This document shows, in pieces, positions 15,474 through 34,452 of a stretch of DNA of 64,000 nt (its first letter is position 1; each line of letters starts with the position of its first letter). The notes under the pieces were generated by a model. That model ran no database searches. It saw only the letters and a program-made list of their open reading frames with translations, and had not been told where the DNA came from. Position numbers and translations under genes: made by a program. Source of the stretch: an uncultured Bacteroidales bacterium (GTDB taxonomy: Bacteria > Bacteroidota > Bacteroidia > Bacteroidales > UBA932); the NCBI GenBank assembly GCA_944322565.1, contig CALUPG010000001.1, forward strand, positions 186,001 to 250,000. The letters run 5' to 3'.

Positions 15474-15485
15474 GACCGACCGGCT

Positions 15486-16553: not shown

Positions 16554-16574
16554 ATTATTATGTTTACCATGTCA

Positions 16575-16925: not shown

Positions 16926-16959
16926 TTTCTAGTATTTTCTTTCAGAACATTTTGTCCGG

Positions 16960-16995
16960 TAAAAATAAATACCGGCTGTGCCATATCGTGACACT
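16960..16995 (-). promoter_or_regulatory. Island operator 3 and weak -7 box, before metallopeptidase operon
   Basis: Plus-strand TGTGCCATATCGTGACACT at 16977-16995, an inverted repeat with arms TGTGxC and GxCACx. Fourteen nt away is TAAAAATA at 16960-16967 (minus-strand TATTTTTA, one base off consensus). Confidence 0.6.
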
Positions 16996-17166
16996 GTCGG
17001 AAAATTATTGTAAAGTGCCACGAATGGCTTATACGGCCAAATATGGACACAACGATTGCAATGGTTGCAATATCAATGAAAATTGGGCAGTATTCAGAAC
17101 TATTTGTTATTTTTGTATGAAATGAGTCAGCCTGCGGTGTCCATAGCACGGTGGTGAACAGCACCA

Positions 17167-18729
17167 ATGGCTACAAAACATGATTTTATGCTGTACCCTA
17201 TCGGAATCCAGAATTTTGAGGACCTCAGAAAAGGAGGTTATATCTATGTGGACAAAACCGAACAGATACACAGGCTTGTATCTACGGGCAAATATTATTT
17301 CCTGAGCCGTCCCAGGCGCTTCGGGAAGAGTCTGCTCGTGTCCTCGATAGAGTCGTACATGAGCGGCAGGAAAGACCTTTTCGGAGGGCTTGCATTGGAA
17401 AAACTGGAGACGGAATGGGCTGCATATCCGGTGCTGCATCTCGACTTGAGCGGAAAGGCGTACAATACTGAAGAGGCTCTCCCGAATGTATTGAATTACC
17501 ATTTGGAGCAATGGGAGAAGGCATATTCAGCAGAATGTATAGACAACAATCCTGAAACACGGTTCAAAAGAATCATAGACGCAGCATACACTGCAACGGG
17601 ACGCCAGGTAGTGATTCTCATTGACGAATACGACAAGCCGATAATCGACAACCTGGACAATATAGAACTTCAGGAATATTTCAGAAGCCTGCTGCAGGGA
17701 TTCTACGGAGTGATGAAAGCCAAGGACGGCAGCATTCGGCTGGGATTCTTGACAGGGGTGACCAAAATCGGGAAACTGAGCGTATTCAGCGGGCTCAACA
17801 ACCTTAACGACATTTCAATGGACCCTGAATACTCGGACATCTGCGGTATCAGCGGCTCCGACCTGCACAAGTATTTCCCCGAATCGGTCAAGGAACTCGC
17901 AGAAAGGAACAGTCTGACCGAGGATGAATGCTATTCCAAACTCAAGGAAATGTATGACGGCTACCATTTCAGCGAAGACTCTGAAGGGATGTACAACCCG
18001 TTCAGCCTCCTGAACACGCTCCAAAAAAAGAGATTCAGCGAGTACTGGTTCGAGACCGGCACACCGTCATTCCTTGTAATGGTCATGCAGCGGACATCAT
18101 TCGACATCACTACGCTTTCCGACGAGGAAGTGGATTCGACGCTCTTGAGCAGCATAAACACGATATTTGAAAACCCGATTCCTCTGCTGTATCAGAGCGG
18201 ATACCTTACCATTACCGGCTATGACAGGGAATTCGGTCTTTACCGGCTCGGATTCCCGAATTCCGAAGTCAAGACTGGTTTTCTGAACTTTATTTTCCAG
18301 TATTACATTCCGGGTGAGCCTACATCCGGAATCACCCTCATCTCAAAACTGGCACGTGCAGCGTGTACAGGCAAGCCGGAAGAGATGATGCGCCTCCTAG
18401 AAGGCCTGTTCGCAAGGGCAAACTACCAGATCCAGGGTGATGCCGAGCGCGACTTCCAGTATGCCATGTACCTCATATTTGAACTCCTCGGAGAATATGT
18501 CCGGACTGAATACCAGACAAGCAACGGACGCATCGACATCCTACTGCAGACCGAAAGCTACATCTACATCATTGAGATCAAGACCGACGGCAGCGCCGAC
18601 GAGGCCTTGGCACAAATTGAGGAGAAAGGCTACGCCAAAGCATTTGCCGACGACAGCCGCAGGATCTTTAAAATAGGCGTGAATTTCGACAAGTCATCCC
18701 GCAGAATCGAGGAATGGAAAGTCGTATAA
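17167..18729 (+). CDS. AAA ATPase with PD-(D/E)XK nuclease domain
   Basis: 520 aa. The N-terminal AAA-ATPase-like domain begins PIGIQNFEDLRKGGYIYVDK and has a P-loop in SRPRRFGKSLL and Walker B in VILIDEYDKP. The C-terminal DUF1703/PDDEXK_9 nuclease core is at ~440-500 (GRIDILLQ…IYIIEIKTDG). This family is multicopy in Bacteroidales and its role is not settled. It may be a lineage-specific parasite-like or defence gene. It carries its own -7 box, TATTTTTG at 17108-17115, and no clear island operator. Confidence 0.88.
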   Translation: MATKHDFMLYPIGIQNFEDLRKGGYIYVDKTEQIHRLVSTGKYYFLSRPRRFGKSLLVSSIESYMSGRKDLFGGLALEKLETEWAAYPVLHLDLSGKAYNTEEALPNVLNYHLEQWEKAYSAECIDNNPETRFKRIIDAAYTATGRQVVILIDEYDKPIIDNLDNIELQEYFRSLLQGFYGVMKAKDGSIRLGFLTGVTKIGKLSVFSGLNNLNDISMDPEYSDICGISGSDLHKYFPESVKELAERNSLTEDECYSKLKEMYDGYHFSEDSEGMYNPFSLLNTLQKKRFSEYWFETGTPSFLVMVMQRTSFDITTLSDEEVDSTLLSSINTIFENPIPLLYQSGYLTITGYDREFGLYRLGFPNSEVKTGFLNFIFQYYIPGEPTSGITLISKLARAACTGKPEEMMRLLEGLFARANYQIQGDAERDFQYAMYLIFELLGEYVRTEYQTSNGRIDILLQTESYIYIIEIKTDGSADEALAQIEEKGYAKAFADDSRRIFKIGVNFDKSSRRIEEWKVV

Positions 18730-18751
18730 CATTATTCAGACTTCAGTCCGA

Positions 18752-19240
18752 TTACAACAACTTCAATGCAATGGCGGCACAGGCTTCCGCATCGGCAAGC
18801 GCATTGTGGTGGTTCTCCATGCTGTAGCCGCAAGCAGCTGCCGAAAGATGAAGCTGATGACTCGGAATGTCAAGGCATCTACGTGAAGCCGCAAGAGTAC
18901 AATAAAATTCGTATCCGGGGTATTCCATCCCATATTCTTCAAATGCAGCCTTCAGGCAACTTTCATCAAAGGGACGATTGTGGGCGACAAGGGGAAGTCC
19001 TGCAATTCGTCCTTCTATCTGTGCCCAGACTTCAGGAAACCTGGGCTGATTGTCTGTATCCCCGTGCGTAAGCCCATGGACCTCCGTTGTCCAATAAGTG
19101 TAATAATTGGGTGTCGGCTGGATTAGACTGTAAAACTTATCGACAATCTTTCCTTCCCGGACTACCACTACTCCGACACTGCATATGCTGGAACGCCGTC
19201 CGTTGGCTGTTTCAAAATCTATTGCTGCAAAATCCTGCAT
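18752..19240 (-). CDS. DEDDh 3'-5' exonuclease
   Basis: 162 aa DnaQ-like fold. Exo I is AIDFETA, Exo II is VAHNRPFDESCL and Exo III is HHNALADAEA, with the His that defines the DEDDh class. Metal-dependent 3'-5' hydrolysis of DNA or RNA ends is expected. ATG 19240 is two bases past the TGA of the upstream WYL2 gene, so the two are translationally coupled. A TTG at 19246 is a less likely start. Confidence 0.87.
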   Translation of the reverse strand: MQDFAAIDFETANGRRSSICSVGVVVVREGKIVDKFYSLIQPTPNYYTYWTTEVHGLTHGDTDNQPRFPEVWAQIEGRIAGLPLVAHNRPFDESCLKAAFEEYGMEYPGYEFYCTLAASRRCLDIPSHQLHLSAAACGYSMENHHNALADAEACAAIALKLL

Positions 19241-19242
19241 GG

Positions 19243-20148
19243 TCAATCATTTTTATACAAGTTATACATGTCAGCCACCCATCCTTTCATTGTCTTTCTC
19301 AAAGACGCCGGAGAGATGACCTCTATCATTGCGCCTACATGAAGCAATCTCATGACAAAGTCATAGGTTGGAGTCAGGAAAAACTCAAAATCCGCATACT
19401 CCCCATTATCTTCCAGCAACTTCTGGCTGTGATGCAGAGGAAGAGATTTTATATATGGGATATGGTTTCCGTATGCCCTGATGACTATACGCTGAGGCTT
19501 CATGCTCTTGTCCGTGACAATTCCGTAATAATTCGAGAAATAATCCGAAGCGGAAAAATCTTTCGGAAGCTTGAATGTGTCATCCGTCATTTCCAAATCC
19601 TCTATGCGGTCAAGCCCGTAAATCCGCAAATCATCATATTGGACATTGCGTGCCAAAACAAACCAGCGGTCTTCAAACAATTTTACGCAGTATGGCTCAA
19701 TGGCAAACTTATGGCTTTCAGTTTTGTTGAACCGGCAATAAGTGATTGATACAACACGACTTTCCCTCATAGCATCAAGCAATGCCGACAAGTGGTTGCG
19801 TGCTGACGGAATGCTGTTGACGATAATACGGTCCTTCAGTGAAAAGTTCTCGCTGATGAGATTGCTTACGGCAAACGAGTCGAGCATCCATTTTTTAAGC
19901 TCATCCTCGTCAATATCCTCCGGATTCTCTATATAATAGAGGTAGCCGCCTGCCCTCTGGCATGAGATTATTATACCGAACTGACTGAAAATGGCATCTT
20001 TCCAGCGGTTGAAGGTAGAACGGCTCAAGGGTTTATAGTCACTCAGGTCCTTATTGCGCTCCCAGCGCTCGGAAATCTCCTCCAAAGAAATTTTTCCTGC
20101 TCTCCTGATAGTGTCTATCAGCCATGTGTACTTTTGAAGCTGTTGCAT
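19243..20148 (-). CDS. WYL-domain transcriptional regulator (WYL2)
   Basis: 301 aa, a full-length paralogue of WYL1 with the same layout: winged helix (YTWLIDTIRRAGKISLEEI), WYL core (AIEPYCVKLFEDRWFVLARN…RIYGLDRIEDL) and C-terminal extension (LPLHHSQKLL, TPTYDFVMRLL). It is co-transcribed with the DEDDh exonuclease and divergent from the AAA+ gene. Its own promoter has no clear copy of the island operator, so it may bind a different site or act downstream of WYL1. Confidence 0.85.
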   Translation of the reverse strand: MQQLQKYTWLIDTIRRAGKISLEEISERWERNKDLSDYKPLSRSTFNRWKDAIFSQFGIIISCQRAGGYLYYIENPEDIDEDELKKWMLDSFAVSNLISENFSLKDRIIVNSIPSARNHLSALLDAMRESRVVSITYCRFNKTESHKFAIEPYCVKLFEDRWFVLARNVQYDDLRIYGLDRIEDLEMTDDTFKLPKDFSASDYFSNYYGIVTDKSMKPQRIVIRAYGNHIPYIKSLPLHHSQKLLEDNGEYADFEFFLTPTYDFVMRLLHVGAMIEVISPASLRKTMKGWVADMYNLYKND

Positions 20149-20329
20149 ATTTCAGTATGTTTGGTTTCCGTAAAATTAATAAAACTATGGCATTTATATG
20201 TCGTCCAATACTCCGCCGGTAAAATTCATCGCAAATTAATGCCCAACATGTCTCACTTTTATACACAACTCCAGATTTGTTGAGGGCTTTCCATAGATAG
20301 TTTTAGGGAAAAGTTATTTTTTCGATACT

Positions 20330-20365
20330 TGTACCAATAAATGGAACATCATGGCTGTATCTTTG
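20330..20365 (+). promoter_or_regulatory. Degenerate island operator 4 and -7 box, before AAA+ gene
   Basis: TGTACCAATAAATGGAACA at 20330-20348 keeps the TGTxCC…TGG core. The 14-nt spacing to a perfect -7 box TATCTTTG (20358-20365) matches the other sites. Confidence 0.45.
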
Positions 20366-20391
20366 TGCTGAAATTCCCAAAGTAGCACATA

Positions 20392-22110
20392 ATGAGAATG
20401 TTAAAAATCCACAAGGAAGCTGACACCCCTATAGACATAATGAATCCGGCACAAATCATGAATCGGATACGAATCAAAAGAATCAAAAGTGTGCTTGAGG
20501 CATTCGAGCATATCGTTGAACTGGCTAAAGACAGTAATCTTGACGATATTTACTTCAGGACTGCTTCCAAATATATCAAGTACGCATCCCGCAAGCTGGC
20601 TTTGTCACAGATGCAGACTGTCCTGTTGGCGCTCTTCGTGGACAGGAGCGAGGATAATCAAATCAGAATTTCTGAAATCGCATCTTACTCAGGATGCCGC
20701 ACGACCAAAATACTGAGGCTTTCTTCAGAAATAGATGTGCTTGAAAGCAAACACTATCTGCGGGCTTCACGTTCGCACGACAGGCTTTCCTACCGCGTTC
20801 CCGGAGCTGTCCTGAAAGCCCTGAAGGAGAACCGCCCATATATCCACACAACAGAGCCTATATCCGACCTTCATTCGTTTTTTGAGAGGTTCAATGATTT
20901 GATGGAAGAAATGAATGACAATGAGACAACGCATGAGGTACTTCTTCATCAGACCGATGAATACCTTTCCGAAATCAAGGATTCTTATTTTGTGCGGTCG
21001 CTGAAAAGGTTCAGCCTCGACGATGAAAACAGGCTGCTGTTCATCTACATGGCTCATCTTTTTGTGGAAAACAATGATGACCGTATCGGATTCGTTGACC
21101 TGGAGAACCTGTATGACGACAATAAAATCCCCAACTGGTGCAAAACCGAACTCCGCGGACATACCTCGGAACTGTTTGACTGCAATTTGATTGAAAATGT
21201 GAATGAGGAAGGCATGGCCCGTTCGGACTGCTTCAAGCTGACAGAATATGCCAAGTCCGACGTGCTTTCGGAATTGGATTTGAAAATCAAGGCAAAGTCC
21301 AGGGAAAGTCTGATAAAGTTTGACTCGTTCTCTGAGAAAAAGTTGATTTACAATCCTTCCGAGAGAAGCCAGATAACCGAACTTTCCTCCATTCTTTCCG
21401 CAGACCGCTTTTGCGAAATCCAGTCACGGCTGCGCAATGCAGGAATGAGGACTGGGTTCTGCAGCCTTTTCTACGGCTCTCCCGGTACGGGAAAAACAGA
21501 AACGGTATATCAGATAGCACGTGCTACTGGACGCGACATACTGCGGGTGGATGTTGACAAAATCAAAAGCTGCTGGGTCGGCGAAAGCGAGCAGAACATG
21601 AAAAAATTGTTCGACAGATACCGCAATATCTGCAAGGATTCGTCTCTTGCCCCGATTCTTCTTTTCAACGAGGCCGATGCCATTCTCGGCGTGCGTATGG
21701 AAGGGGCTACCCGCGCCGTGGACAAAATGGAAAATTCTATACAGAATATCATTCTTCAGGAGATGGAGTCCCTTGAGGGCATAATGATTGCCACGACAAA
21801 CCTCACAGGCAATCTTGACAAGGCTTTTGAACGCCGCTTCCTTTACAAGATTCAGTTCAACCGTCCCACTGCCGATGCACGCTACCGAATCTGGCAAGCC
21901 ATGCTGCCGTCGCTGACGGAAAACGATGCGCAGACTCTTGCTTCCCAGTTTGACCTTTCCGGCGGAGAAATCGAGAACATTACCAGAAAATATACAGTCA
22001 ACGCCATCCTGTCGGGGCAAGATGGCATTGACCTGCAGTCGATAATCGAAATTTGCCGGAACGAACGCATTTCCGATTCCGTCCGGGCAAAAATAGGATT
22101 CCGGATATGA
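20392..22110 (+). CDS. AAA+ ATPase with N-terminal winged-helix region
   Basis: 572 aa. Residues ~60-150 look like a winged-helix module (ISEIASYSGCRTTKILRL). The AAA+ domain is at ~355-520, with Walker A FYGSPGTGKTE, sensor-like TTNLTGNLDKAF and an arginine finger in FERRF. Walker B reads ILLFNEADAI: the usual first aspartate is asparagine while the catalytic glutamate is kept. This belongs to the single-domain AAA ATPases related to ARC/FtsH-type remodellers. Partner unknown. It is divergent from WYL2, separated by 243 bp. Confidence 0.82.
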   Translation: MRMLKIHKEADTPIDIMNPAQIMNRIRIKRIKSVLEAFEHIVELAKDSNLDDIYFRTASKYIKYASRKLALSQMQTVLLALFVDRSEDNQIRISEIASYSGCRTTKILRLSSEIDVLESKHYLRASRSHDRLSYRVPGAVLKALKENRPYIHTTEPISDLHSFFERFNDLMEEMNDNETTHEVLLHQTDEYLSEIKDSYFVRSLKRFSLDDENRLLFIYMAHLFVENNDDRIGFVDLENLYDDNKIPNWCKTELRGHTSELFDCNLIENVNEEGMARSDCFKLTEYAKSDVLSELDLKIKAKSRESLIKFDSFSEKKLIYNPSERSQITELSSILSADRFCEIQSRLRNAGMRTGFCSLFYGSPGTGKTETVYQIARATGRDILRVDVDKIKSCWVGESEQNMKKLFDRYRNICKDSSLAPILLFNEADAILGVRMEGATRAVDKMENSIQNIILQEMESLEGIMIATTNLTGNLDKAFERRFLYKIQFNRPTADARYRIWQAMLPSLTENDAQTLASQFDLSGGEIENITRKYTVNAILSGQDGIDLQSIIEICRNERISDSVRAKIGFRI

Positions 22111-22116
22111 TTCCAA

Positions 22117-22204
22117 TTATTCTGCAGCCATGGAATTTAATACAAGTCTGATGACATTGACGACATCAACGGCATCGGTGATGTTTGCCATTATCTCCTC
22201 TTTC
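22117..22204 (-). pseudogene. Remnant of rtcB 3' end
   Basis: This 88-bp stretch aligns without gaps to the last 88 bp of rtcB (11189-11276). On the minus strand it still reads MANITDAVDVVNVI and ends AAE-stop, against MANITDTVDVVNVI…AAE-stop in rtcB. No upstream rtcB sequence remains. It lies just after the AAA+ gene, so a second rtcB copy once stood here or the fragment was carried by a recombination event. The rest of 22205-22301 holds nothing recognisable. Confidence 0.85.
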
Positions 22205-22301
22205 TATGATTGTATACCCAGAAGTGCATAAAAGACTTCCGGACAATCCGGAATTTTCCTAAACCTGTCAGGGAACAGTGGATCGGAACGGGTGATGGTT
22301 T

Positions 22302-23672
22302 TCATAAATGGGATTTCTTGAAGTCTTCATATTTTTCCAAATATCTTCTCATCAGCTCGGCACGCCTTTCCAACAGTTCGTTGCGATTATCGTTATCCAT
22401 ATCCTCCAGTCCAACCGTAAAATCATACTGCTCCCTGATTTTTGAATCGAAAAGGAGATAAGGGAACCGATGCTGCAGATATAGAATTGCTTCCTCGACT
22501 ATTTTCGGACCGTTGTCAATGTCGGTGTCATAATAAAATGCTAATGGAATACTTTCATCTGTCATTTGTTCGTAAGGCAGTCGCTCAAATTCTTCAACAG
22601 TATATTGACCTTTCGCAGAAAACAGTGATGCCGACCACCAGTAAGTGTCTTCGCGGAGATATACATCGTATGTCCTGCCGTCCAATTCATTGTAAAAGCA
22701 GGCATCCCATTGTCCCGGACACGGGCCGGTGATTTTCCATTCCAGGTTTATAACTGTCTTTACAGAATCAGGCGTCTGGAAACACACTCTGTCTGGATTG
22801 AACTGCAGCAGCGTACTTTCTGGCAATACAGCACCATTCTTTGCAACATATATTTTTGTGTAATCTGTATCGACGGGAATTGGGTGTGCATAACGCTTTA
22901 CGATTTGGCTTTCGTTTTCCATAAAAATTATGGTATCGGATAGATCTACGATATAATCACATTTATATTCAATGAATTTATTCACAAAATCATTTCTTAA
23001 TATACCAGTATTCCGTGGTATCTGAGAAATGGCAACGACAGCAATCCCGAATTCTTTGGCAGTGGACTTCAGGGACTTTAATATAGCCTGTACTTCCTGT
23101 TTGCGATCTTTTATCTTACGGATTCCTTCTGGTCCCGTCATTAACTCAAAATAATCAACTATCTCCAATTTTATCCATTTATCTTCGACAAGATGCTTTA
23201 CCTTATCATGAAAGTCCTCTGTCTTCAAACAAGACGTGTCATCCATGTATAACGGAGATTCTTTCAAATTACGGCAAAGACAATCCAAATCATCCGATTC
23301 TTCTCGTGTTATCTCCACGGCTCCGTTCAACTTATGAATGGAAATTCCTGATTCGGTCTTTATCAATCGCTTGGCAATCTGCACTGCAGGTGCTTCCAAA
23401 GAAAAGTATGCCATCGGAATATGACTATCAACGGCAACATTTCTGGCAATATTCAACGCAAGTGCTGTCTTCCCTACGGAACCCCTACCGGCAACAATTA
23501 CCAGTTCAGAAGGATGCAGTCCTCCTGTTATCTTGTCCAAGTACGGAAATCCTGTCGGAATGGAGTTTTCTTGCATAGCTGTGCCCTTGCTTTCTGCTTC
23601 CATAGTAATCTCTTGATTTAATTTTTTTTCTTCAAAGAGAACACGATGATATGCTAAATTATAACACGACAT
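22302..23672 (-). CDS. DnaB-like RecA-fold ATPase, truncated paralogue
   Basis: 456 aa. Residues ~38-290 are a DnaB C-terminal helicase domain: TGFPYLDKITGGL, Walker A GRGSVGKTALALNIA, Walker B LEIVDYFELM, then AVVAISQIPR. The N-terminal DnaG-interaction domain of true DnaB (~450 aa) is missing. The arginine-finger loop AKxRNG reads AKNGAV, so the finger is lost. A ~160-residue C-terminal extension (WDACFYNELDGRTYDVYLRED…) is foreign to DnaB. It lies 19 bp behind the inactive DnaE-like gene, which suggests a complex. Helicase activity is unlikely; ATP binding is plausible. Confidence 0.82.
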   Translation of the reverse strand: MSCYNLAYHRVLFEEKKLNQEITMEAESKGTAMQENSIPTGFPYLDKITGGLHPSELVIVAGRGSVGKTALALNIARNVAVDSHIPMAYFSLEAPAVQIAKRLIKTESGISIHKLNGAVEITREESDDLDCLCRNLKESPLYMDDTSCLKTEDFHDKVKHLVEDKWIKLEIVDYFELMTGPEGIRKIKDRKQEVQAILKSLKSTAKEFGIAVVAISQIPRNTGILRNDFVNKFIEYKCDYIVDLSDTIIFMENESQIVKRYAHPIPVDTDYTKIYVAKNGAVLPESTLLQFNPDRVCFQTPDSVKTVINLEWKITGPCPGQWDACFYNELDGRTYDVYLREDTYWWSASLFSAKGQYTVEEFERLPYEQMTDESIPLAFYYDTDIDNGPKIVEEAILYLQHRFPYLLFDSKIREQYDFTVGLEDMDNDNRNELLERRAELMRRYLEKYEDFKKSHL

Positions 23673-23691
23673 CCATATAGGATGGTTTTGA

Positions 23692-25911
23692 CTATAATTT
23701 GCAATAATGTTCGGTCAATTTTTTATTGTATTTCTGGTATGTTTCAGGGAAATGTGCCTTGAGATAGCCGCACAAATATGCGAAATAAATATTACACAGA
23801 AAAAAGTTCTTGTCTAAAAAAGAAGCTGAAAGATCATACCGCAAATTTTCTGCCCAGAATTTTGCCAGTTCCTCTTCTGTGTAACCGTTTGCAATCCCAC
23901 CACTGATGAACCGTCGTTTCATCTCAAAAAGATCTTCTTTTATCCAGTTGCCTACTGACGCCATTAACCGTTCTGACTCTTCAGGCGTAAACCCCGCTAT
24001 CCTCTGCACTATCTGCATCAGCTGCTCTTCATAGACAAGCACACCATAAGTGTCGTCAAGAATATCAGATATGCCGGACAGAGGATAAGAAATTTTTGAC
24101 GGGTCAATATAATGTGACATCAATCCCGGGAATTTATCACTTTGCGACAATATTCCGGAAAGAGCAAGTTTTTGAAAATTGTCCGGTTTCACTCTGTGCA
24201 ACATCCGGATACTGTCTTTGTCGGAGAAACAAAATATATCGTCTGTCCTTCCCTCCGAAAACAGGGCAAATGTCATTTCATCATCCAAAGGAATAGTATG
24301 ATAATCTATATTGCACTCTCTTGTCACATTCCCTATCAGTTCCAAAAGAGCGCTTTGTACGAAACAAAATATGACCGGACCTGTTTCTATTAACCCGGTA
24401 TATTGACTTACTATATCATTATCTGAAGAATCCGATGTTATCGGCACATATTCAGATATTGGCTTCTTACTGAGCAGAATCTCTTTTCCGTAGTCAGTAA
24501 CAGTAGAATGAATTGTATAGATCAGTTTGTTTTCGCAATCTGATGATATTTTATATTTTTTCAGAACCTGATTTATTTTAACTTTATCTTCTCTGTCAAA
24601 ACCTATGAACCTGACGACTTTCGCCACATTATCATTCCCATATCTGCACTTCAGGTGATTAATGGCTGATTCACGACTGCCTTCTTTGTCAAGAATTAAC
24701 CATAGAATTGGATAATTGGAATCTGAATCATTGAGAAACCTCTCATTTAAACCGTATTTTACGGGGTCAATTTCCGTAATATCAAGCAAGTAATTTATCA
24801 GAGAACTGAAAATCTCGCAAAAACTCGATGATATAACTCCACCATTTTCCCTGACAGCTTGAAACAAATCGTATAATATCAGGAAATAATTGGTATAGCC
24901 CAATTCCTTCACCATACGGAGTTCGCTTTCAAGCCGACTCCAATGCGCTTCGTCATCGCATCCTTTAGCTGTAAGAGCGGCAGTGCAGAGATGCTCCAGA
25001 TATTCAAACTGGGAACAGTTGTCAGGTACAGGATAATCCGGCAATTCCGGAGGGCACTCTATACTGTACCGTTCTACCTTATCCAAGACTTTCATCGTAT
25101 TGCTGACGGCTTCAGGATGATCAGTGAAAAGCGCAAGCATCTGTTTCTCGGACTTGATATACTCTTCACCCGTGTATAATGGACTATATTTTTCACCTTT
25201 GTAGAGATATTCTTTAAACATCACATCCTGCAGGACTGCATCTTTTTTCAAAACGAAATGCACATCATTAGTGGCGACGACATCCACGCTGTGCTTTTCA
25301 GCAAGGTCGAAAATCACAGCATTGACTTTGTCCTGCATTTCCTTGAGATTGTGTCCCTTGCCTGATTTTGACCATTTGTGCGACATGACCTCAAGGTAGA
25401 AATCGTCTCCGAAAACCTCCCGATACCATTCTATGGCAGCCACTGCCTTGTCCAAGTCATCATGCAGCACAGCCTGCGGAATCTCTCCTGCAATGCAGCC
25501 CGACAGTGCTATCAGTCCTTCATGATGGGCAGCCAGCACATCGTGACTTATACGTGGCTTGCCATAATATTCACCTTCAATATTGCCTAAGGTCACTATC
25601 CTGACAAGATTCCTGTATCCGGCAAGATTCTTCGCCAAAAGTGTCAGATGAAAGCATTTCCTGTGGAAAATATCTTTGATTTTGTGGTCATAATGGTCTG
25701 TAAGATTAATCTCGCAGCCGACAACAGGTTTGATATCCGGAAACCTTTGTGCTATCTCCAGAAATTCAGGGACACCATACAGTGCTCCGTGGTCTGTCAA
25801 AGCCAGCCCAGCCTGTTCTAAGCTTCTGGCCCGCTTGAAAAGCTCATAAATATTTGCGACTCCGTCACAAACAGAGTATCTGGAATGAACATGAAGATGT
25901 GCAAATGCCAT
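23692..25911 (-). CDS. DnaE-like protein with intact PHP but dead polymerase site
   Basis: 739 aa against ~1100-1250 for housekeeping DnaE. The N-terminal PHP domain is well kept: HLHVHSRYSVCDG, ALTDHGALYG, VGCEINL, LSGCIAGE, ATNDVHF. The palm follows (DPVKYGLNERFL) but the catalytic PDxDxD motif reads YPILWLI (residue ~400) and the third aspartate in KFDFLGL reads IFCFVQS (~513). The finger NALYRPGP block is GILSQSDKF, while YGVLVYEEQLMQIVQRIAGF is kept. The protein ends after LKAHFPETY, so beta-clamp- and tau-binding parts are absent. It may bind DNA and cut it through PHP. Operator 5 is upstream. Confidence 0.88.
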   Translation of the reverse strand: MAFAHLHVHSRYSVCDGVANIYELFKRARSLEQAGLALTDHGALYGVPEFLEIAQRFPDIKPVVGCEINLTDHYDHKIKDIFHRKCFHLTLLAKNLAGYRNLVRIVTLGNIEGEYYGKPRISHDVLAAHHEGLIALSGCIAGEIPQAVLHDDLDKAVAAIEWYREVFGDDFYLEVMSHKWSKSGKGHNLKEMQDKVNAVIFDLAEKHSVDVVATNDVHFVLKKDAVLQDVMFKEYLYKGEKYSPLYTGEEYIKSEKQMLALFTDHPEAVSNTMKVLDKVERYSIECPPELPDYPVPDNCSQFEYLEHLCTAALTAKGCDDEAHWSRLESELRMVKELGYTNYFLILYDLFQAVRENGGVISSSFCEIFSSLINYLLDITEIDPVKYGLNERFLNDSDSNYPILWLILDKEGSRESAINHLKCRYGNDNVAKVVRFIGFDREDKVKINQVLKKYKISSDCENKLIYTIHSTVTDYGKEILLSKKPISEYVPITSDSSDNDIVSQYTGLIETGPVIFCFVQSALLELIGNVTRECNIDYHTIPLDDEMTFALFSEGRTDDIFCFSDKDSIRMLHRVKPDNFQKLALSGILSQSDKFPGLMSHYIDPSKISYPLSGISDILDDTYGVLVYEEQLMQIVQRIAGFTPEESERLMASVGNWIKEDLFEMKRRFISGGIANGYTEEELAKFWAENLRYDLSASFLDKNFFLCNIYFAYLCGYLKAHFPETYQKYNKKLTEHYCKL

Positions 25912-25954
25912 ATCGTTTCAATTATAAAGCATTATCCGTACTGATTATTTTGTG

Positions 25955-25990
25955 CAAAATAAATCCGATGATAAGCCAAAACACGGCTCA
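25955..25990 (-). promoter_or_regulatory. Island operator 5 and -7 box, before DnaE-like operon
   Basis: Plus-strand TAAGCCAAAACACGGCTCA at 25972-25990, then 14 nt to CAAAATAA at 25955-25962 (minus-strand TTATTTTG). The arm TGAGCC/GGCTTA makes a clear inverted repeat. Confidence 0.75.
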
Positions 25991-26019
25991 AGTATACAAT
26001 AAAACGAGTTTAAAATAAA

Positions 26020-26060
26020 GCCGGAAATTCACTGAAAAAACATTGTCAGAAATTTCCGGC
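26020..26060 (-). terminator. Intrinsic terminator after DUF262 operon
   Basis: GCCGGAAATT and AATTTCCGGC form a 10-bp perfect stem; on the minus strand it is followed by a T-rich tract (TTTATTTT). It separates the DUF262 genes from the DnaE-like operon. Confidence 0.7.
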
Positions 26061-26096
26061 CGCTCGCCTATTCAAGTCAATGATTTTCGTACAAAT

Positions 26097-28475
26097 CTAC
26101 CGCCCTTGTTCATCAGCCGATTTCAGAAAATCATTGAAAATTTCCGTTATATATGCGTCATTGCATTTAAGGATATCATCCGGCACCTGCCTGTTCTTGA
26201 AGCTATCGTAATCAGCAATTTTTCCAGGGGCATACAACGGACGGTCAAGAAGAACCGGATTGTCATGTCCGTTTTTATCCGCATAGCGGACACCGTCTCT
26301 GTAAATGTAACCGGCAGAGGAATTGCCGACTGAAAACTCGCAATTAATGTTAATTCTGTTGTCGTAAGCGTTCTTGTAACAACCAATAGCTTTGGCAGTC
26401 CAATATGTAATCTTTTCTTCGGCCTTGTTGGCAGCAAGGACTTTTAGAAGGAGCCAAACGCGCAGGTAATTGGCAGGAGTAAATGTTTCAGAAGTCATGA
26501 TGATGTCCGACTCCTTATATTCCTCTCTTACTGCTTTCTGCAAGGACACGACCAAGTCCTGAGAAGACAATAAACTTGAAAAGCGCTCGTCCCGATATTC
26601 ATTATTATATGCCTGCAAATAATCATACTTGCCGAAAGACATGCCGGAAGCATCCCATGTATGATAATAGATATGCCCCACCGCATCACTCCACCCGCAG
26701 AGGAAGCGATATAGCCGGTAGAAATTGGAAAGCCTGACATCGTCACTATGGGAAAGACCTTCTGTCGCACACTCATTGTCAATACTGTCATACAACAGCC
26801 TGAAATTGTCAAATCTGTTCTGAAGTTGTCGGACTGAGTCCTGTGTCCAACTGCCGTCATCAATTTCGCTCCAAAGGACAGACATGTCGAAGAGAATACT
26901 TGGATGTCCCTCATATTGCAAAATGATCCTGTCAGCCTCTTCTTCTGAAGCAGAATCCTTAACGAAATTGTAGAATGAACGTTTCATTCTCTCGTCATGG
27001 TCAAACCAGCATGAGACTTTCACATTAGGAATCTTTTTTGAGAAAGCATCATCCCTCAAGCTGTCGAATGACAGCAAAGCACCGATATTTTCAGCCTGTT
27101 CTATAATCTGAACAACATAACGCCAATCAAGAGTGGTTTCGGAATCGTTTCTGCGCACGCGTCCATATTTCTTGTCAAGTACATTTTTGGCCATACGACA
27201 GGAAAATAAGAAAATATCATGCTTGAATGAATTGTAGTCGCCGAACTTCTCGCAGAAACTGATAAGTGGCAGCAGCATGTCTGCATTTTTTCTCAATGCA
27301 TTAAAAATAAAGACTATATCATCTCCTGCCTTATTATCAAATGCCTTATTGAATGATGAAAGCACCTTCTTTAACTTCTCATCACTATCGATAGTTTCAT
27401 ATAACTTTTTCAATGCCCTGAATCGTCTATGCACATTGGCAAGGCTATCATTCCACCTATGAGTGGAATCATATTCTTCTGATTCATCTCCAGCAGTTTC
27501 TGTCTTTTTCAAAAACATGTCCTTGGGGAGAATATCATACTCCGTGCCTTCCTTCCACACCTTCTCCTGAAGCAACTGCAACTGCCAGTACCAAACATAA
27601 AAGTCATTGCTCAGGTTGTCAGAAGTCGCTTCCTTATCTTTATTACGATGCTTCCAGAACCAGTCTTCTCGTTCCTCCCATTCATCTGAAAATTGTTTTC
27701 TCTGGCTTTCATCTTTCAGATTGCCTATCAGGACCGGTTTCAAATTTTCTGTTGCAGTCAGCGGCTCTCCTGTTGTGTTTATGACAACGAATGTCTCTTC
27801 CCCATGCAGCCGGTCACCCATGTCAAAATAGACAAAGTGAAGCTTGTTGATGACAAAGTCTACAAATGAGGACAATTCATAATTACGTTTTCTTAATTCG
27901 TACAGAGCGTCCTCTATATGCTTGACTGCGCTGATTATGGCCTGTATTGACGCATCTTGGTCGTATTCCCTATAATACCAGTCAACATCGGTAATATTTT
28001 CAACTTTATGGTCTTCCATAATGAAGCAATGGTAAACCAGGTCACTGAGGAAAGACAAAGTGCTTTCCCTTATCGCATATTGCAGTTGAGGTTCCTGATC
28101 ATCCTTTTTTTCAAAATCAGTCATCAGCAATGATTCCAGCTGTCTGTTGTGGTTTGCCATCATATTCAACACACCCAACATGAGATAAAGGGTGGTCAGA
28201 CGCTGCTGCCCGTCACACAACTGAATCTGACCTTTAGGCTCTTCATATCCGTAAAGTATTCCCAAAGTCATAGCATCACCTTTTTTATAACCGTCAATGA
28301 TGCCTTCAATAAACTGTGTCACGAGTTGGCCTTGACCTTTTTTGTTCTGATCGTACGTCTGCCGTCCCCAGCAGTAGTCCCTTTGCAAATCGGGGATTAC
28401 AATTTTCCAGTTTCCGGAAAACAAATCTTTGAGACTATATTCTTCTCCACTTGTCAAATGGTTATTATTTTTCAT
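26097..28475 (-). CDS. DUF262 protein, GmrSD/type IV-like, no HNH seen
   Basis: 792 aa. The N-terminal DUF262 ParB-like nucleotidase domain shows PDLQRDYCWG (residue ~32) and the signature LCDGQQRLTTLYL (~88). The long middle and C-terminal parts have no clear DUF1524 HNH motif. DUF262 proteins include the GmrS-type subunits of type IV restriction enzymes that cut modified phage DNA, and other defence proteins. Its start overlaps the stop of the second DUF262 gene by 11 bp, so the two proteins are likely made together. Confidence 0.82.
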   Translation of the reverse strand: MKNNNHLTSGEEYSLKDLFSGNWKIVIPDLQRDYCWGRQTYDQNKKGQGQLVTQFIEGIIDGYKKGDAMTLGILYGYEEPKGQIQLCDGQQRLTTLYLMLGVLNMMANHNRQLESLLMTDFEKKDDQEPQLQYAIRESTLSFLSDLVYHCFIMEDHKVENITDVDWYYREYDQDASIQAIISAVKHIEDALYELRKRNYELSSFVDFVINKLHFVYFDMGDRLHGEETFVVINTTGEPLTATENLKPVLIGNLKDESQRKQFSDEWEEREDWFWKHRNKDKEATSDNLSNDFYVWYWQLQLLQEKVWKEGTEYDILPKDMFLKKTETAGDESEEYDSTHRWNDSLANVHRRFRALKKLYETIDSDEKLKKVLSSFNKAFDNKAGDDIVFIFNALRKNADMLLPLISFCEKFGDYNSFKHDIFLFSCRMAKNVLDKKYGRVRRNDSETTLDWRYVVQIIEQAENIGALLSFDSLRDDAFSKKIPNVKVSCWFDHDERMKRSFYNFVKDSASEEEADRIILQYEGHPSILFDMSVLWSEIDDGSWTQDSVRQLQNRFDNFRLLYDSIDNECATEGLSHSDDVRLSNFYRLYRFLCGWSDAVGHIYYHTWDASGMSFGKYDYLQAYNNEYRDERFSSLLSSQDLVVSLQKAVREEYKESDIIMTSETFTPANYLRVWLLLKVLAANKAEEKITYWTAKAIGCYKNAYDNRININCEFSVGNSSAGYIYRDGVRYADKNGHDNPVLLDRPLYAPGKIADYDSFKNRQVPDDILKCNDAYITEIFNDFLKSADEQGR

Positions 28476-30300
28476 ATAGTGTTTCAGTTTGCTTGATTAT
28501 CTCATTATAATTTTCAACTATTTCCTTCGCCCGCCAATCTGATTTGGCGAATTTTGAAACCGAATGCAGAAGATTCCTGCTTTGGAAACCAGCATTAACA
28601 TCGAAGAATGTCCTTTTCTTTTCTTCGAAAGTCTTATTCCCGAATTCGGAATTGTTACCTTTATACAACAGCACCAGATTTCCGATGGAGTGCTCGGTAA
28701 TTTTAGCCTCTGACTCACTTTCTATCTCCTCTCGTGCAAGCCATGTGCCGTCTCCTGCCGTTATTGCGGCCTTTTCTTCTTCTGAACATTTTTCGTCATC
28801 ACCCCTCCAATAATCTCCAGTCTCATCCGTATGATAAACTTTCGACTTCGGAAAAATATGCTCTAGAGACTTCTCTGTCCATACAGTAAAGTCGAATTTC
28901 CTTCCGCAAAACTTTCCGGAAACATTCAGTCTGTTGTCTTCAACAACATTCAAATACATAAGATATACATAACATTGTCTTTTTGCGGTATTGAACGCAG
29001 CCTTGTCCAAAAGTGCGGAAAGGAAAGACTGTTGGACACTGTCAAGTTCTTCTTTTTTGTCGGGAGTTATTATCTGCAGGTGTGTAGCCCCGGCCATTTT
29101 GCATTTGGCATACCATTCCAAAGCCTTTTTGTCATTCTTGTTATTCAGAAAATACCTTATTATATCATACTTTTCATTTTGTATATCACATTTAAAACTC
29201 AATCCGAGCCAATTATGAACTATCGGGTCATCATACATGTCCTCAAATGACTTCTGGAGATGCCTGAGTTCTTTGAAAACATGTTTTGTACGGATGTTTA
29301 TTTCCAACATTTCGGCATCACTTTCAATAGCCGCCGTTTTTGTATCTTTCAATAATTTTGAAAACGAACTGAAGCTGAAAACCTGTTTTTTGTTTTCTTC
29401 TTTGCCTCTATGAAAGTAATCCAAAAGCAGCCCCATCGGAGTATGCGTTCCGAAAAAATTACCGACATCTTCCCTGTTCCACCAATAAAGCCATCTGTCC
29501 CATTCTCTTGCATATCTGCTTCTTAAATTAGTCGTTTCCCAGTCTTCAGCACAGATATCGCGCAACAAATCCAGACCATAGTCAATGGACGTTACTGTCT
29601 TCACTTCCTTCGGAAGAGGACGGGATACTTGTCTGAGAAGTTCTGCCTTTACAAGTTCTTCGTCCAGCATAGTAGCCTTGGCTCCGTTCATCATTGTAAA
29701 AGTACGGACAGCTTTTTCCTGAGAATCTACAGTGATGTATATGACTTTGAGCCTGTTTTTAATATAGTTTACCAGTTTGACAACTATATCCTTCTTTTTT
29801 GCAAGGAATCCGTGTATCTGCCCGATAGCCTCCTTGAAATAATAAATATCCTGCTCGTCGGAATCTGAAGGCTTAAATTTCTGGTCAATCTCATCCGAGT
29901 TCATGACACCTGGACTTTCGTCTGATTTCAGACCCGTAAGAAACGTTTCCGATTTTTCCCTGATATCATACTTAAAATTGATGTCGGAAATTGCGGCCTT
30001 GCCTCCTGAATACCATATGAGCAGGTAAATTGTTGTCAGACGCTGCTGCCCGTCTATGACTATTAAGTTATTCTCATCTTCTTGTACAGTAATGCCTTGC
30101 AGAAAATAATCATAATCGTTCCGGCAAGGATTTTCAATGTCTGCCAACAATTTTTCTACAGATGATACTCCGTTATTGCTTTTAACGGCCCACTTGTACC
30201 CTCGCTGATAATTTGGAATGACAATCTCCTTATATCCTGGCTTACCAGCCAACGGCCGATAAAGAATTTCCCCGATTGTCTTGAATGTAGCATTGTTCAT
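28465..30300 (-). CDS. DUF262-DUF1524 GmrSD-like endonuclease
   Basis: 611 aa. DUF262 at residues ~20-200 with PNYQRGYKWA and VIDGQQRLTTIYL, then a helical region, then a C-terminal DUF1524/HNH domain with SLEHIFPKS (~475) and HSIGNLVLLYKGNNSEFGN (~555). This is the single-chain GmrSD layout: NTP-dependent cleavage of modified DNA is the known family activity, not shown here. It follows a ~82-aa gene by 10 bp and overlaps the next DUF262 gene. Confidence 0.88.
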   Translation of the reverse strand: MNNATFKTIGEILYRPLAGKPGYKEIVIPNYQRGYKWAVKSNNGVSSVEKLLADIENPCRNDYDYFLQGITVQEDENNLIVIDGQQRLTTIYLLIWYSGGKAAISDINFKYDIREKSETFLTGLKSDESPGVMNSDEIDQKFKPSDSDEQDIYYFKEAIGQIHGFLAKKKDIVVKLVNYIKNRLKVIYITVDSQEKAVRTFTMMNGAKATMLDEELVKAELLRQVSRPLPKEVKTVTSIDYGLDLLRDICAEDWETTNLRSRYAREWDRWLYWWNREDVGNFFGTHTPMGLLLDYFHRGKEENKKQVFSFSSFSKLLKDTKTAAIESDAEMLEINIRTKHVFKELRHLQKSFEDMYDDPIVHNWLGLSFKCDIQNEKYDIIRYFLNNKNDKKALEWYAKCKMAGATHLQIITPDKKEELDSVQQSFLSALLDKAAFNTAKRQCYVYLMYLNVVEDNRLNVSGKFCGRKFDFTVWTEKSLEHIFPKSKVYHTDETGDYWRGDDEKCSEEEKAAITAGDGTWLAREEIESESEAKITEHSIGNLVLLYKGNNSEFGNKTFEEKKRTFFDVNAGFQSRNLLHSVSKFAKSDWRAKEIVENYNEIIKQTETLYEK

Positions 30301-30310
30301 AAATCTAGTG

Positions 30311-30559
30311 TTATATCAAAATTATGTAATCTATTCCGACACAAAAAAGCGTGGCACCGATGCCCATTTCAGGATACAGGCTCTGGAAAGCCTTGAAGAT
30401 GAAATAAGCAACAGCCCCACGCGCATACCACAAGTGATATGACGTGAGAAGATGTCCGCCCATTCCCTCTTCCTTGAATTTTCCAGATTCGTATCCGGGA
30501 ACAGACTTACACTTTCCGTGTCCGTCAATATTTCTTTCAAATTTAGAATTGTTTTCCAT
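30311..30559 (-). CDS. Small protein, paralogue of the gene at 40950
   Basis: 82 aa from ATG 30559 (a TTG at 30568 is less likely). The core SGKFKEEGMGGHLLTSYHLW and RGAVAYFIFKAF is nearly the same as in the product at 40950-41201, including long identical DNA stretches. The family is unknown. The hydrophobic C-terminus (GATLFCVGIDYIILI) differs from that of the paralogue. It is tightly spaced to the DUF262-HNH gene, so it may be an accessory part of that operon. Confidence 0.65.
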   Translation of the reverse strand: MENNSKFERNIDGHGKCKSVPGYESGKFKEEGMGGHLLTSYHLWYARGAVAYFIFKAFQSLYPEMGIGATLFCVGIDYIILI

Positions 30560-30604
30560 TTTTTTCAAAAGTTTTGCCAGAGCGGGCTGTCGCCTTTTTA
30601 AATC

Positions 30605-31375
30605 CTATTCCCACCATTCACGCATCTTGTACAGGCGGATCCTGTAATACAGACGTTCCATTTTGCGGACATATAGTCTTGTGCCAAAATAGATTTTGTC
30701 TGGATATATGTCATCATCTTCTTGTTTTGCCGGAGCCTGCAGGAAATTCACAAGTTCGCCTTGTGTTACAATATCGCCGAGATTGCGTACATTCATTTTC
30801 TCAATCTGCGCTTCTGAAATGGCCATTCCGTCATCTTTGATATACTTCAGCAGGCTTATGCATGTATCTATCCACCTATTGAAGCCATAATTCCCGTCTT
30901 CATCCGCAATAAGCGAATGGGGAAAATATGCCCTCATGCATATAAGCTTCTTGTATTCAAGTTCATAGAGGTACCGCCAATCATACTGGGGAGCATTTCT
31001 TGCCGTATCGACAAGGTCATCGACAAGAGGCTGAAGATGCTTCTCTTTCCATGCCCGGAACCTCTTCCTGTGATACCAGAGAGAACGTTCATACGCAGCA
31101 CAAGACATTATATCTTCCTTAGTTTCTTCGCTGTCCGGATCAGGCTTCAGGACTGTTCCGTCAGTCAGGATTGCTCCTTCCAGGACATTCCTCGGAGCAA
31201 ATACAGCGACCCACTGTTCAAATTCCTCATCGGAATTCAACTCATTTCTCGCTCGAATTCCACGTATCCTCAAAGCATCTTTCTCCTCATCCGAAAGATG
31301 CGAAACATCTGCAAGAGGATAATCATAATTGCTCTCATTCAGTCCGACAAGAGCCTTTGGTTTCAAATCTCCCAT
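30605..31375 (-). CDS. Hypothetical protein
   Basis: 256 aa, soluble, charged and helical; rich in W, Y and R toward the C-terminus (RLYVRKMERLYYRIRLYKMREWWE). No recognisable motif. It is 45 bp upstream of the small protein gene and 53 bp downstream of the chimeric DUF6557-like gene, so it appears to be the second gene of a five-gene leftward operon ending in the two DUF262 genes. Confidence 0.6.
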   Translation of the reverse strand: MGDLKPKALVGLNESNYDYPLADVSHLSDEEKDALRIRGIRARNELNSDEEFEQWVAVFAPRNVLEGAILTDGTVLKPDPDSEETKEDIMSCAAYERSLWYHRKRFRAWKEKHLQPLVDDLVDTARNAPQYDWRYLYELEYKKLICMRAYFPHSLIADEDGNYGFNRWIDTCISLLKYIKDDGMAISEAQIEKMNVRNLGDIVTQGELVNFLQAPAKQEDDDIYPDKIYFGTRLYVRKMERLYYRIRLYKMREWWE

Positions 31376-31428
31376 ATCTGATTATTTTACGGTGTCGACT
31401 ATTATTAAGTGGGATAATGCTCTTCTGT

Positions 31429-32514
31429 TCATTGCATTTTGTTCAGCAGAAGGACTGCCCTGATTTCCCTGCCGCATCCGGTGTCGCAAACAGTACCTGT
31501 GCGGATATCTTCATACCCGAAAAAATTCCTGATTTCAGTCCAGAATCCAGAAAGGGCAAGATGTCCGACCGGATATTCAGGGGAATAAAATATGCCGACC
31601 ACGGCATTGTCATATTGCGTCAAGTCCAGACTCTGGTATTTTGTGATGGAGTCCAGGATATAGTCCAGCCGCTTGTCATGATCTGCCTCCATGTTTGTCT
31701 CTGTCGGCCTCTTTTCCACACTTTCCATGGTGTCTGAAACGGAGTCCCTCGGCCCTGTCACTGAACGATAATCATACCTCATTCCATATTTGACTTCAAG
31801 GATGAAATCAAGGTCTCTGCGGACGAAAGTGCTATTACCTTCCATAAGGTCGAGGATGTTGTTTTCCCTCCGGCTCATTGATTTCAGGTATTTCTTACGT
31901 GTTTCCTGTCGATGCTCTCTCATCCTCTTGGGCCTATTCAAGCCTTTTCTGTACAAGTCTCTACCACTCCATTCTCCGCTGATAAACCTCATACCGTCAT
32001 GTTTTGAGCGATATTTACTTGGCACCTGATGACGCCATTCGCTCTCTTCAAGCCGATCCAATAGTATGTCAAACCGGTTTCTTTTTTCCGCGCCGTGCAT
32101 TTCATCGAATGTCTTGGTTATCTCGTTAGGAGAAAATCCGTAGAAAGTTATTTCCCATAGACATTTGGCGGCAATCTCTTCCATGGTCAGATTGACATTC
32201 TCTCCGATGACTATCCTCTTGGCAAGAGCATTCTCCCAAATGTCTCCGTCAAGGTGAAAAACTCCAATCCATTGATTATTCCCGTATGCCTCTCCACTCC
32301 ACCTGACCATAGCTTCGCCCTCAAAGTCCGCTGACGGTTTCATATTTCTGAGAATGTCATATGCCTCCCGAAAACTATATATGGTATTAGCATAACGTTT
32401 ACCGTATGATTTCAGATAAGGAATAAGACTATCGAAATCTACCTTGTCAAAAAGTTCTTTAAGCGTCATATTCTGCAGGTCCGCCCTTACGCTCAGTGCT
32501 TCTGCCAATTTCAT
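31429..32514 (-). CDS. DUF6557-like protein with DIP1984-derived N-terminus
   Basis: 361 aa. Residues 1-14 (MKLAEALSVRADLQ) are identical to the start of the DIP1984 protein at 12797-13261. From M16 the protein reads MTLKELFDKVDFDSLIPYLK, which I recall as the start of the Bacteroidota family DUF6557 (name not verified). A native ATG would be at 32469. The DNA just upstream also matches the DIP1984 leader (CATAAAA…AACAGA). So the 5' end of one gene was fused in frame to another. Middle part basic (RMREHRQETRKKYLKSMSRR). Function unknown. Confidence 0.75.
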   Translation of the reverse strand: MKLAEALSVRADLQNMTLKELFDKVDFDSLIPYLKSYGKRYANTIYSFREAYDILRNMKPSADFEGEAMVRWSGEAYGNNQWIGVFHLDGDIWENALAKRIVIGENVNLTMEEIAAKCLWEITFYGFSPNEITKTFDEMHGAEKRNRFDILLDRLEESEWRHQVPSKYRSKHDGMRFISGEWSGRDLYRKGLNRPKRMREHRQETRKKYLKSMSRRENNILDLMEGNSTFVRRDLDFILEVKYGMRYDYRSVTGPRDSVSDTMESVEKRPTETNMEADHDKRLDYILDSITKYQSLDLTQYDNAVVGIFYSPEYPVGHLALSGFWTEIRNFFGYEDIRTGTVCDTGCGREIRAVLLLNKMQ

Positions 32515-32540
32515 TTTTCTGTTATTTTATGCTTTGCATA

Positions 32541-32579
32541 CAAACACGCTGCGCCTCGGCATAGCCAAAATAAATTTTG
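32541..32579 (-). promoter_or_regulatory. Possible degenerate island operator 6
   Basis: Plus-strand ATAGCCAAAATAAATTTTG keeps one half-site (TTTTGGCTAT on the minus strand). A possible -7 box CGTGTTTG (32541-32548) is 17 nt away instead of 14. Weak. Confidence 0.3.
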
Positions 32580-32629
32580 TCTCTGTACTCGGCTTGCAGT
32601 TTATTTTAAATTTCACATACCTGCCAAAC

Positions 32630-33935: not shown

Positions 33936-33971
33936 CAAATGTCGGCTCATGCTATGCCAAAATATGACTCA
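33936..33971 (-). promoter_or_regulatory. Island operator 7 and -7 box, before SpoU gene
   Basis: Plus-strand TATGCCAAAATATGACTCA at 33953-33971, then 14 nt to CAAATGTC at 33936-33943 (minus-strand GACATTTG). Confidence 0.75.
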
Positions 33972-34399: not shown

Positions 34400-34435
34400 T
34401 ATGCCTTGTTTTGGCATATCTTCGCTTTTTATTTG
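34400..34435 (+). promoter_or_regulatory. Island operator 9 and -7 box, perfect palindrome arms
   Basis: TATGCCTTGTTTTGGCATA at 34400-34418 has perfect 6-bp arms (TATGCC/GGCATA) around 7 nt. Its TTTG is 14 nt before TTTATTTG at 34428-34435. The gene starts at 34453. Confidence 0.8.
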
Positions 34436-34452
34436 TAAAAAGACAGAAAATC

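Follow-up and report, generated by a model that had tools for sequence, protein, structure and literature searches.

A stretch of 64,000 nucleotides of an uncultured Bacteroidales bacterium, the whole of which is called the window below, encodes a truncated paralogue of the replicative polymerase DnaE (DnaE*) that has lost its three catalytic aspartates, has kept its PHP site and is under purifying selection. The DnaE* family is mobile and was found, in the searches made in this analysis, only in Cryptobacteroides, where islands of this type carry degraded copies of four replication and topology enzymes: DnaE, DnaB, GyrA and GyrB. The reading that we favour, tentatively, is that DnaE* mimics the structure of the host replicative polymerase without its activity and belongs to the cargo of a defence island that is mobile and jointly regulated.

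A truncated DnaE with an intact PHP site

The gene (23692-25911, minus strand) has an intact, open frame with an ATG start, as checked in the window, and encodes 739 aa, while the host DnaE encoded elsewhere in the genome has about 1,268 aa (frame of 1,301 aa, G000:C2). Three Pfam domains are recognized, PHP at residues 5-178 (1.4e-48), DNA_pol3_alpha at 303-470 and DNA_pol3_finger at 530-676. An AlphaFold model (pLDDT 80.5, pTM 0.75) superposes on crystal structures of DnaE with TM scores of 0.79-0.83, normalized by query length, and the DnaE fold has therefore been kept; the alpha-epsilon chimera structures 4gx8 and 4gx9 are among the fold matches. Compared with a replicative DnaE, DnaE* thus has the PHP-palm-fingers homology and the fold but neither the catalytic aspartates nor the C-terminal part. 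An Rfam search of the window found no family.

An earlier note on this DNA had claimed that the PHP motifs are kept, that PDxDxD and the third aspartate of the palm are lost and that the C-terminal clamp- and tau-binding regions are gone, and alignment to the host DnaE bears out all three. In the PHP region (residues 1-290; 25042-25911, minus strand), all nine HHDHEHCDH ligands are present (H7, H9, D16, H41, E67, H88, C139, D216 and H218), the nine-residue signature HHDHEH[C/H]DH being the published definition of an "active" PHP (PMC12926913). Where the host has PDIDIDF, the palm of DnaE* reads P401-I402-L403-W404-L405-I406-L407 (24691-24711, minus strand), and the host KMDFLGL has become VIFCFVQ, with C516 (F-C-F; 24361-24369, minus strand) at the position of the third aspartate. 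The triad is hence I/W/C, with none of the three aspartates of replicative DnaE. Three further polymerase motifs, absent from the list of the earlier note, are gone: GRGSAAGS (now SFCEIFSS), YRPGPM in the fingers and RKAMGKK in the dNTP site (now MASVGNW). The earlier note had allowed for other acidic residues taking over the palm site; the predicted structure is that of DnaE and, as judged from the sequence alignment, the aligned strand offers no acidic replacement, D408 being aligned with a non-catalytic aspartate also present in hosts. As DnaE* stops where the host tail (to about 1,268 aa) starts, the clamp-, OB- and tau-binding regions are missing.

The DnaE* family

Two other bins of the genus, G404 and G465, have near-identical copies, the G465 protein being 98.5% identical. 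In G404, which belongs to another species bin, the whole 19.7-kb contig (L088, C44) is 100% identical to positions 13140-32881 of the window; this possibly reflects recent transfer or cross-binning and the copy was consequently left out as an independent one. A 60%-identical DnaE* of 520 aa in which the fingers have been dropped is present in Ca. Cryptobacteroides excrementipullorum and Ca. C. avistercoris; the DnaE* of G398 and G254 retain the PHP domain and have entirely lost the fingers. G044, G286, G327, G368 and G442 encode more divergent members, and G218 has a broken one. When 84,980 GTDB species genomes were scanned with patterns derived from DnaE*, only the four loci with the near-identical and the 60%-identical copies were retrieved, a result which speaks for the sub-lineage of the window at that sensitivity.

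The polymerase aspartates have been lost in nine of ten members, with the triads IWC, IWC, ERN, ERD, TDN, ADN, CDD and PDN; in the broken G218 gene the first aspartate reads N, and G442 is the sole member with DDD. Conversely, DDD is found in all 22 host or order DnaEs, in 80/80 viral DnaEs and in four DnaEs from plasmid or phage collections. The DnaE of the Prevotella plasmid pE2-28, a short one, likewise has DDD. Over nine DnaE*, 77 of the 81 ligand positions of PHP are conserved, against an overall identity of about 51% for the domain. The site is intact in six of the nine, has one change in two (D to E in G254, D to N in G368) and two changes in the remaining one, G442, where it is clearly degenerate (HLEHEHCDH). 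The PHP domain is absent altogether from relatives that are themselves under selection, namely the G218 form and the fingers-only forms of G032, G365 and G471.

Between close relatives, dN/dS is 0.245 (window versus its G465 orthologue) and 0.21 (the G398/G254 pair). For the deeper split between the window and G398, dN is 0.18 in the PHP region and 0.50 in the remainder, dN being used instead of dN/dS because dS is saturated. With dN/dS of about 0.2-0.25 and intact frames, DnaE* is the product of neither chance nor decay, which rules out a pseudogene. Selection on a protein devoid of the triad also lends good support to the earlier proposal that the protein was repurposed after loss of polymerase function. 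The same proposal had looked to orthologues for a conserved PHP site: the lower dN of this region and the six intact sites point to constraint, while G442, and G254 and G368 at one residue each, depart from it.

In a tree of the PHP domain, DnaE* is sister to the DnaE clade of the genus itself (support 96/99 for the host clade, 99/100 for DnaE* plus host), and the monophyly of all nine DnaE* is weakly supported (54/57, or 80/90 without G442). A search of IMG/VR with patterns of DnaE* itself retrieved no relative; together with the DDD triads of the 80 viral DnaEs and of the pE2-28 DnaE and the sister position to the host, this led us to reject a phage or plasmid origin.

Other DnaE-like frames were encountered in the genus. 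The divergent 687-aa relative of G442 (L093, contig C16, 8738-10801, plus strand), which combines the kept DDD with the degenerate PHP, adjoins TIR-domain and zinc-ribbon genes. Copies cut down to the fingers domain (170-237 aa) lie at L102 (8602-9294, minus strand), L101 (8908-9420, minus strand) and L100 (1502-2215, plus strand); selection acts on them (0.24 for one pair), and they have the operator described below. A number of short "DnaE" frames of relatives proved to be contig ends or frameshifted host genes and were discarded. In three relatives (L045, L046 and L053), host dnaE is in two overlapping frames with differing break positions, probably owing to assembly or sequencing frameshifts.

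Neighbouring genes

The next gene downstream of DnaE* (22302-23672, minus strand) is a copy of the C-terminal ATPase of DnaB without the N-terminal domain (DnaB*), the more likely start of which is Met24 (23603). Walker A and Walker B are kept and the arginine-finger stretch AKHRNG reads AKNGAV. Its identity is 47-50% to DnaB of the genus versus about 40% outside it. DnaB* ends in an extra C-terminal domain (22302-22757, minus strand) that is free-standing in G254 and G257, evolves with a dN/dS of 0.105 and is modelled with a pLDDT of 70.7; no match to it was found in Pfam, NCBIfam or PDB folds. A 95.8%-identical block common to the window and G465 corresponds exactly to DnaE* plus DnaB*, the DUF262 proteins encoded upstream being about 27% identical, and since the block spans just these two genes, they move as a pair.

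Upstream of DnaE* are a DUF262 (GmrSD_N) gene resembling tgvA (26097-28475, minus strand) and a DUF262 plus DUF1524/HNH (GmrSD_N plus GmrSD_C) gene resembling tgvB (28465-30300, minus strand). By their sequences, the two would form a pair of the TgvAB type, a two-protein anti-phage restriction system (PMC11411939): the QR, DGQQR and FxxxN motifs are in both proteins and DUF1524/HNH in one partner only, as in TgvAB and GmrSD type IV restriction. DnaE* and DnaB* are however no part of TgvAB, and pairs like that of the window occur without them; indeed, the seven other DUF262 pairs examined are all devoid of DnaE*, which led us to reject an obligate four-gene system.

On the other side lie an AAA ATPase gene (20392-22110, plus strand), which recurs in the islands and is distantly like the anti-phage IteA/IetA, below cut-off, and, by domain matches, a WYL-domain regulator gene (19243-20148, minus strand) paired with a gene for a 164-aa DEDDh (DnaQ-like) exonuclease (18752-19246, minus strand). 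A second WYL regulator gene is located at 10212-11144 (minus strand). Forty further DEDDh loci carry no degraded replication enzyme, and DEDDh was dropped as a marker of such islands.

Two repeats were also observed in the window. An inverted repeat of 201 bp (86%) occupies 30346-30546 and 40957-41157, one copy being immediately upstream of the DUF262 operon, and a similar segment precedes DUF262 in G398 and G254. A direct repeat of 272 bp (93%; 34426-34697 and 37442-37713) covers the start of two related operator-bearing genes.

Degraded copies of other replication and topology enzymes

Beside the broken DnaE* and a DUF262 pair, G218 encodes a 687-aa fusion of DnaB_C and GyrA (L094, contig C3, 8098-10161, minus strand), in which the Walker-B aspartate is changed to asparagine and the GyrA arginine preceding the catalytic tyrosine is lost, the tyrosine being kept. 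It is the only non-standard GyrA match among 61 complete genomes. Short copies of the GyrB N-domain (about 200-210 aa; GyrB*) lack the GHKL catalytic glutamate, the asparagine and the ATP lid. They adjoin DUF262 in G106 and G243, directly follow DnaE* in G327 and accompany WYL-DEDDh in four genomes. The loci of these short copies are L097 (11472-12098, plus strand), L149 (6680-7315, minus strand), L143 (4573-5199, plus strand) and L150-L153. A longer GyrB copy is found in G032 and G365 together with the fingers-only DnaE and with PLD-like and PD-(D/E)XK nuclease genes. The GyrB copies evolve with a dN/dS of 0.04-0.15.

Eleven of 13 independent groups of degraded copies are near WYL or DUF262, eight of them within 5 kb of WYL and five within 8 kb of DUF262, for a background of 107 WYL and about 45-54 DUF262 matches in 61 genomes. 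A model of uniform placement gives p of about 1e-14 (WYL) and 3e-9 (DUF262), values which overstate the proximity, since clustering in islands is in any case usual for accessory genes.

Two further genes are worth recording. Within the DnaE* island of G286, an extra ClpP (L095, contig C71, 3332-3997, minus strand) carries the shared operator, has its catalytic triad intact and scores slightly under the Bacteroidota ClpP equivalog cut-off. A 214-aa FtsK/SpoIIIE-like ATPase piece (L149, G106:C97, 3166-3810, plus strand), which shares its short contig with GyrB* and DUF262, is possibly another mimic of a host enzyme.

A shared promoter-operator

DnaE* is preceded by a palindromic promoter-operator (25955-25988, minus strand) of the form AGCCGTGTTTTGGCTTA-N13-TTTG. 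The general element, the palindromic TGCCnnnTTTTGGCA-N15-TTTG, has a -7 element of the Bacteroidota type, TAnnTTTG, at a fixed distance from TGCCnnnTTTTGGCA. It is found upstream of WYL genes (window, G218, G254, G089 and G327), AAA genes (G286, G068, G090 and G082), DUF262 genes (G243 and G218), DnaE* and GyrB*. Pattern search located further copies in the window at 11133-11166 (minus strand; C1:197133-197166), at the 5' end of the second WYL gene, at 13280-13313 (minus strand), at 33936-33969 (minus strand), upstream of a SpoU-family gene, and, on the plus strand, at 34402-34435 and 37417-37450 (both exact matches) and 40299-40332. Over ten genomes, the 34-bp pattern with up to two mismatches has 108 matches versus 18 for the reversed pattern. 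The sites are clustered, with 7 of 13 in the source genome lying within 29 kb around DnaE* and 8 of 9 in G286 within 30 kb.

A position weight matrix (PWM) was trained on non-mimic genes only and calibrated on 463 mechanically chosen control genes, some of which are not real genes (95% level 2.6, 99% level 16.6). The upstream regions of DnaE* score 30.5 in the window, 36.4 in G465, 28.5 in G368, 25.5 in G327, 22.5 in G286 and 10-15 in G398, G254 and G044; eight of ten exceed the 95% control level and five the 99% level. In G465, the DNA upstream of DnaE* differs from that of the window except for the operator, and in G218 an operator site is located 209 bp ahead of the called start. Four GyrB copies score 12-25 and the free-standing DnaB-tail gene 24.5, while host dnaE and dnaB score -7.5 and -11. 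Scores were at background level for four short GyrB copies, the DnaE* of G442 and the G218 fusion.

WYL regulators have been shown to co-localize with phage defence islands and to control them (PMC9122601, PMC9122588). Here also, WYL genes accompany a palindromic operator repeated at island promoters, and the repeated palindrome is probably the signature of a WYL regulon; from its position, we infer that a WYL-type regulator binds the operator and controls the gene set. As in BrxR-type systems (PMC9122601, PMC9122588), a WYL gene is next to defence genes and a palindrome is at the promoter; what differs is that the palindrome, with WYL as its putative binder, stands before many separate genes, including those of degraded enzymes. 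Given the defence-type neighbours and the operator common to DnaE*, GyrB*, WYL, AAA and DUF262 genes, DnaE* is best viewed as cargo of a defence-type regulon.

Possible functions of DnaE*

If DnaE* is a structural mimic of the host polymerase, a phage (or toxin) protein that has evolved to seize DnaE, DnaB or gyrase would bind the mimic instead. The attacker might thereby be titrated away from the real replisome or, in a manner akin to guards and decoys, its binding to the mimic might release a neighbouring effector; in the subfamily of the window, the PHP site, being intact, may contribute nuclease activity as a further output. Mimicry is favoured because the activities of DnaE*, DnaB*, GyrB* and GyrA* differ and are mostly lost, whereas resemblance to host enzymes, joint regulation and nuclease-rich defence neighbourhoods are common to them; four different degraded enzymes are hard to explain by one enzymatic role. 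The resemblance to host targets follows from the position of DnaE* as sister to the DnaE of the genus and from DnaB* being closest to the DnaB of the genus. The replacement of the polymerase site by several different residues, while it is invariant in host, order and viral DnaEs, the purifying selection on DnaE*, GyrB* and the DnaB* tail, the defence context (DUF262 pair, WYL regulators, PLD and PD-(D/E)XK nuclease genes) and an operator shared with island genes, while host dnaE and dnaB score far below zero, all argue in the same direction. Phage proteins are known to seize replication factors, including lambda P acting on DnaB (PMC4926192) and a phage protein acting on DnaI (PMC4887207).

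Several observations fit a bait less well. Conservation of the PHP ligands goes far beyond what a pure decoy would require, G398 and G254 have no fingers, G442 has kept the polymerase triad, the DUF262 pair is common without DnaE* and hence not an obligate partner, and none of the 40 other DEDDh loci has a mimic. In addition, WYL and the operator are linked by position, and the control genes of the PWM were picked mechanically. The earlier note had also suggested a DnaB-binding decoy. The decoy part is close to the picture given by the neighbourhood; for the partner, mimicry of host targets is preferred over DnaB binding, because the gene that follows is a degenerate DnaB in its own right and the sister cargo consists of dead GyrB and GyrA. 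The origin of the DnaB copy, the DnaE* family and the common operator were no part of that note. A broader proposal, plausible though somewhat doubtful, is that a WYL-controlled regulon of Cryptobacteroides deploys dead DnaE, DnaB, GyrA and GyrB replicas as interchangeable bait modules together with swappable nucleases, as a modular "replisome decoy" immunity that would be a bacterial counterpart of plant integrated decoys.

The strongest competing reading, which we consider possible but rather unlikely and which is compatible with bait in one protein, is that DnaE* is a PHP nuclease effector, i.e., the C-family counterpart of noncanonical PolX, having lost synthesis and kept a PHP 3'-5' exonuclease. 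Remnants of the palm and fingers would bind DNA ends and the PHP domain would degrade phage or damaged DNA upon induction of the island. All nine ligands in six members, their conservation well above that of the domain, the lower dN of the PHP region, its retention in G398 and G254 where the fingers were dropped, and nucleases among the neighbours are in line with this reading, as is the biochemically supported precedent of PolX, in which a polymerase site was likewise lost and a PHP site kept (PMC9226535). PolX is however of another polymerase family (X), and DnaE*, a putative exonuclease, sits in defence-type islands with DnaB, GyrA and GyrB copies. Since the host PHP is also fully conserved, retention in DnaE* may be partly inherited, and the co-occurring dead DnaB, GyrA and GyrB copies are left unexplained. 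The PHP nuclease or phosphoesterase of the earlier note is thus possible for members such as that of the window, but seems unlikely to be the common function of the family, because the site is degenerate in G442, substituted in G254 and G368 and absent from the selected fingers-only and G218 forms.

An improbable alternative is a dominant-negative brake, whereby induced dead DnaE, DnaB and gyrase parts would enter host or phage complexes and halt replication in an abortive infection. DnaB* with Walker A and the Walker-B aspartate and no arginine finger, and GyrB* without its catalytic glutamate and asparagine, do have the look of poison subunits and are jointly regulated by the operator. But DnaE* has no clamp/tau tail and DnaB* no N-terminal domain, which makes their entry into a holoenzyme or hexamer doubtful, and divergence from the host amounts to about half of the sequence.

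In E. coli, the proofreading subunit docks on the PHP domain. A regulatory or repair accessory, for instance a docking factor for the DEDDh exonuclease or a sensor of stalled forks, could be imagined from the DEDDh and WYL genes of the same islands, but is very improbable: at 164 aa, the DEDDh protein is too short to include a C-terminal segment that binds alpha, and most DEDDh loci have no DnaE*. Least probable of all, and disfavoured, is that remnants of the replication genes of a phage-plasmid or integrated replicon are drifting in a hypervariable island, since, although phages and plasmids do carry DnaE and one copy (G218) is broken, all examined plasmid and phage DnaEs have DDD, while DnaE* is sister to host DnaE, has dN/dS well under 1 and possesses its own operator.

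Relation to known systems and outlook

Relative to the host DnaE (Pol III alpha, C family), DnaE* is alike in PHP/palm/fingers homology, in fold (TM about 0.8) and in its PHP ligands, and differs by the loss of the triad, the dNTP motifs and the clamp/OB/tau region, by its mobility and by its control by the operator. Among C-family polymerases, the inactivated part is usually the PHP domain and not the polymerase site (survey in PMC12926913); the DnaE* family is the reverse of this pattern, and under selection. The decoy and guard systems PARIS, Ronin and Panoptes (reviewed in PMC12409349) follow the logic proposed here, in which a bait senses an attacking protein; the proposed bait differs in consisting of catalytically dead replisome and gyrase paralogues. 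Polymerase-dead PHP polymerases in family X, WYL-controlled defence islands and decoy logic in immunity are already known. A search of the open-licence literature on DnaE- or gyrase-type decoys returned nothing on the DnaE* family, an absence that is no proof, and we found no earlier account of a family of replisome and gyrase replicas that are catalytically dead, kept by selection and governed by a single operator.

In the islands, a single operator brings together inactive versions of four enzymes of replication and topology with restriction-type nucleases. If DnaE* and its relatives are PHP nucleases, they would extend to the replicative family the theme of lost synthesis and kept nuclease known from PolX. 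If they are bait, they would exemplify an integrated-decoy immunity directed at replication takeover, and the mimics would reveal which host proteins are the targets of the phages, largely unknown, that infect these gut bacteria.
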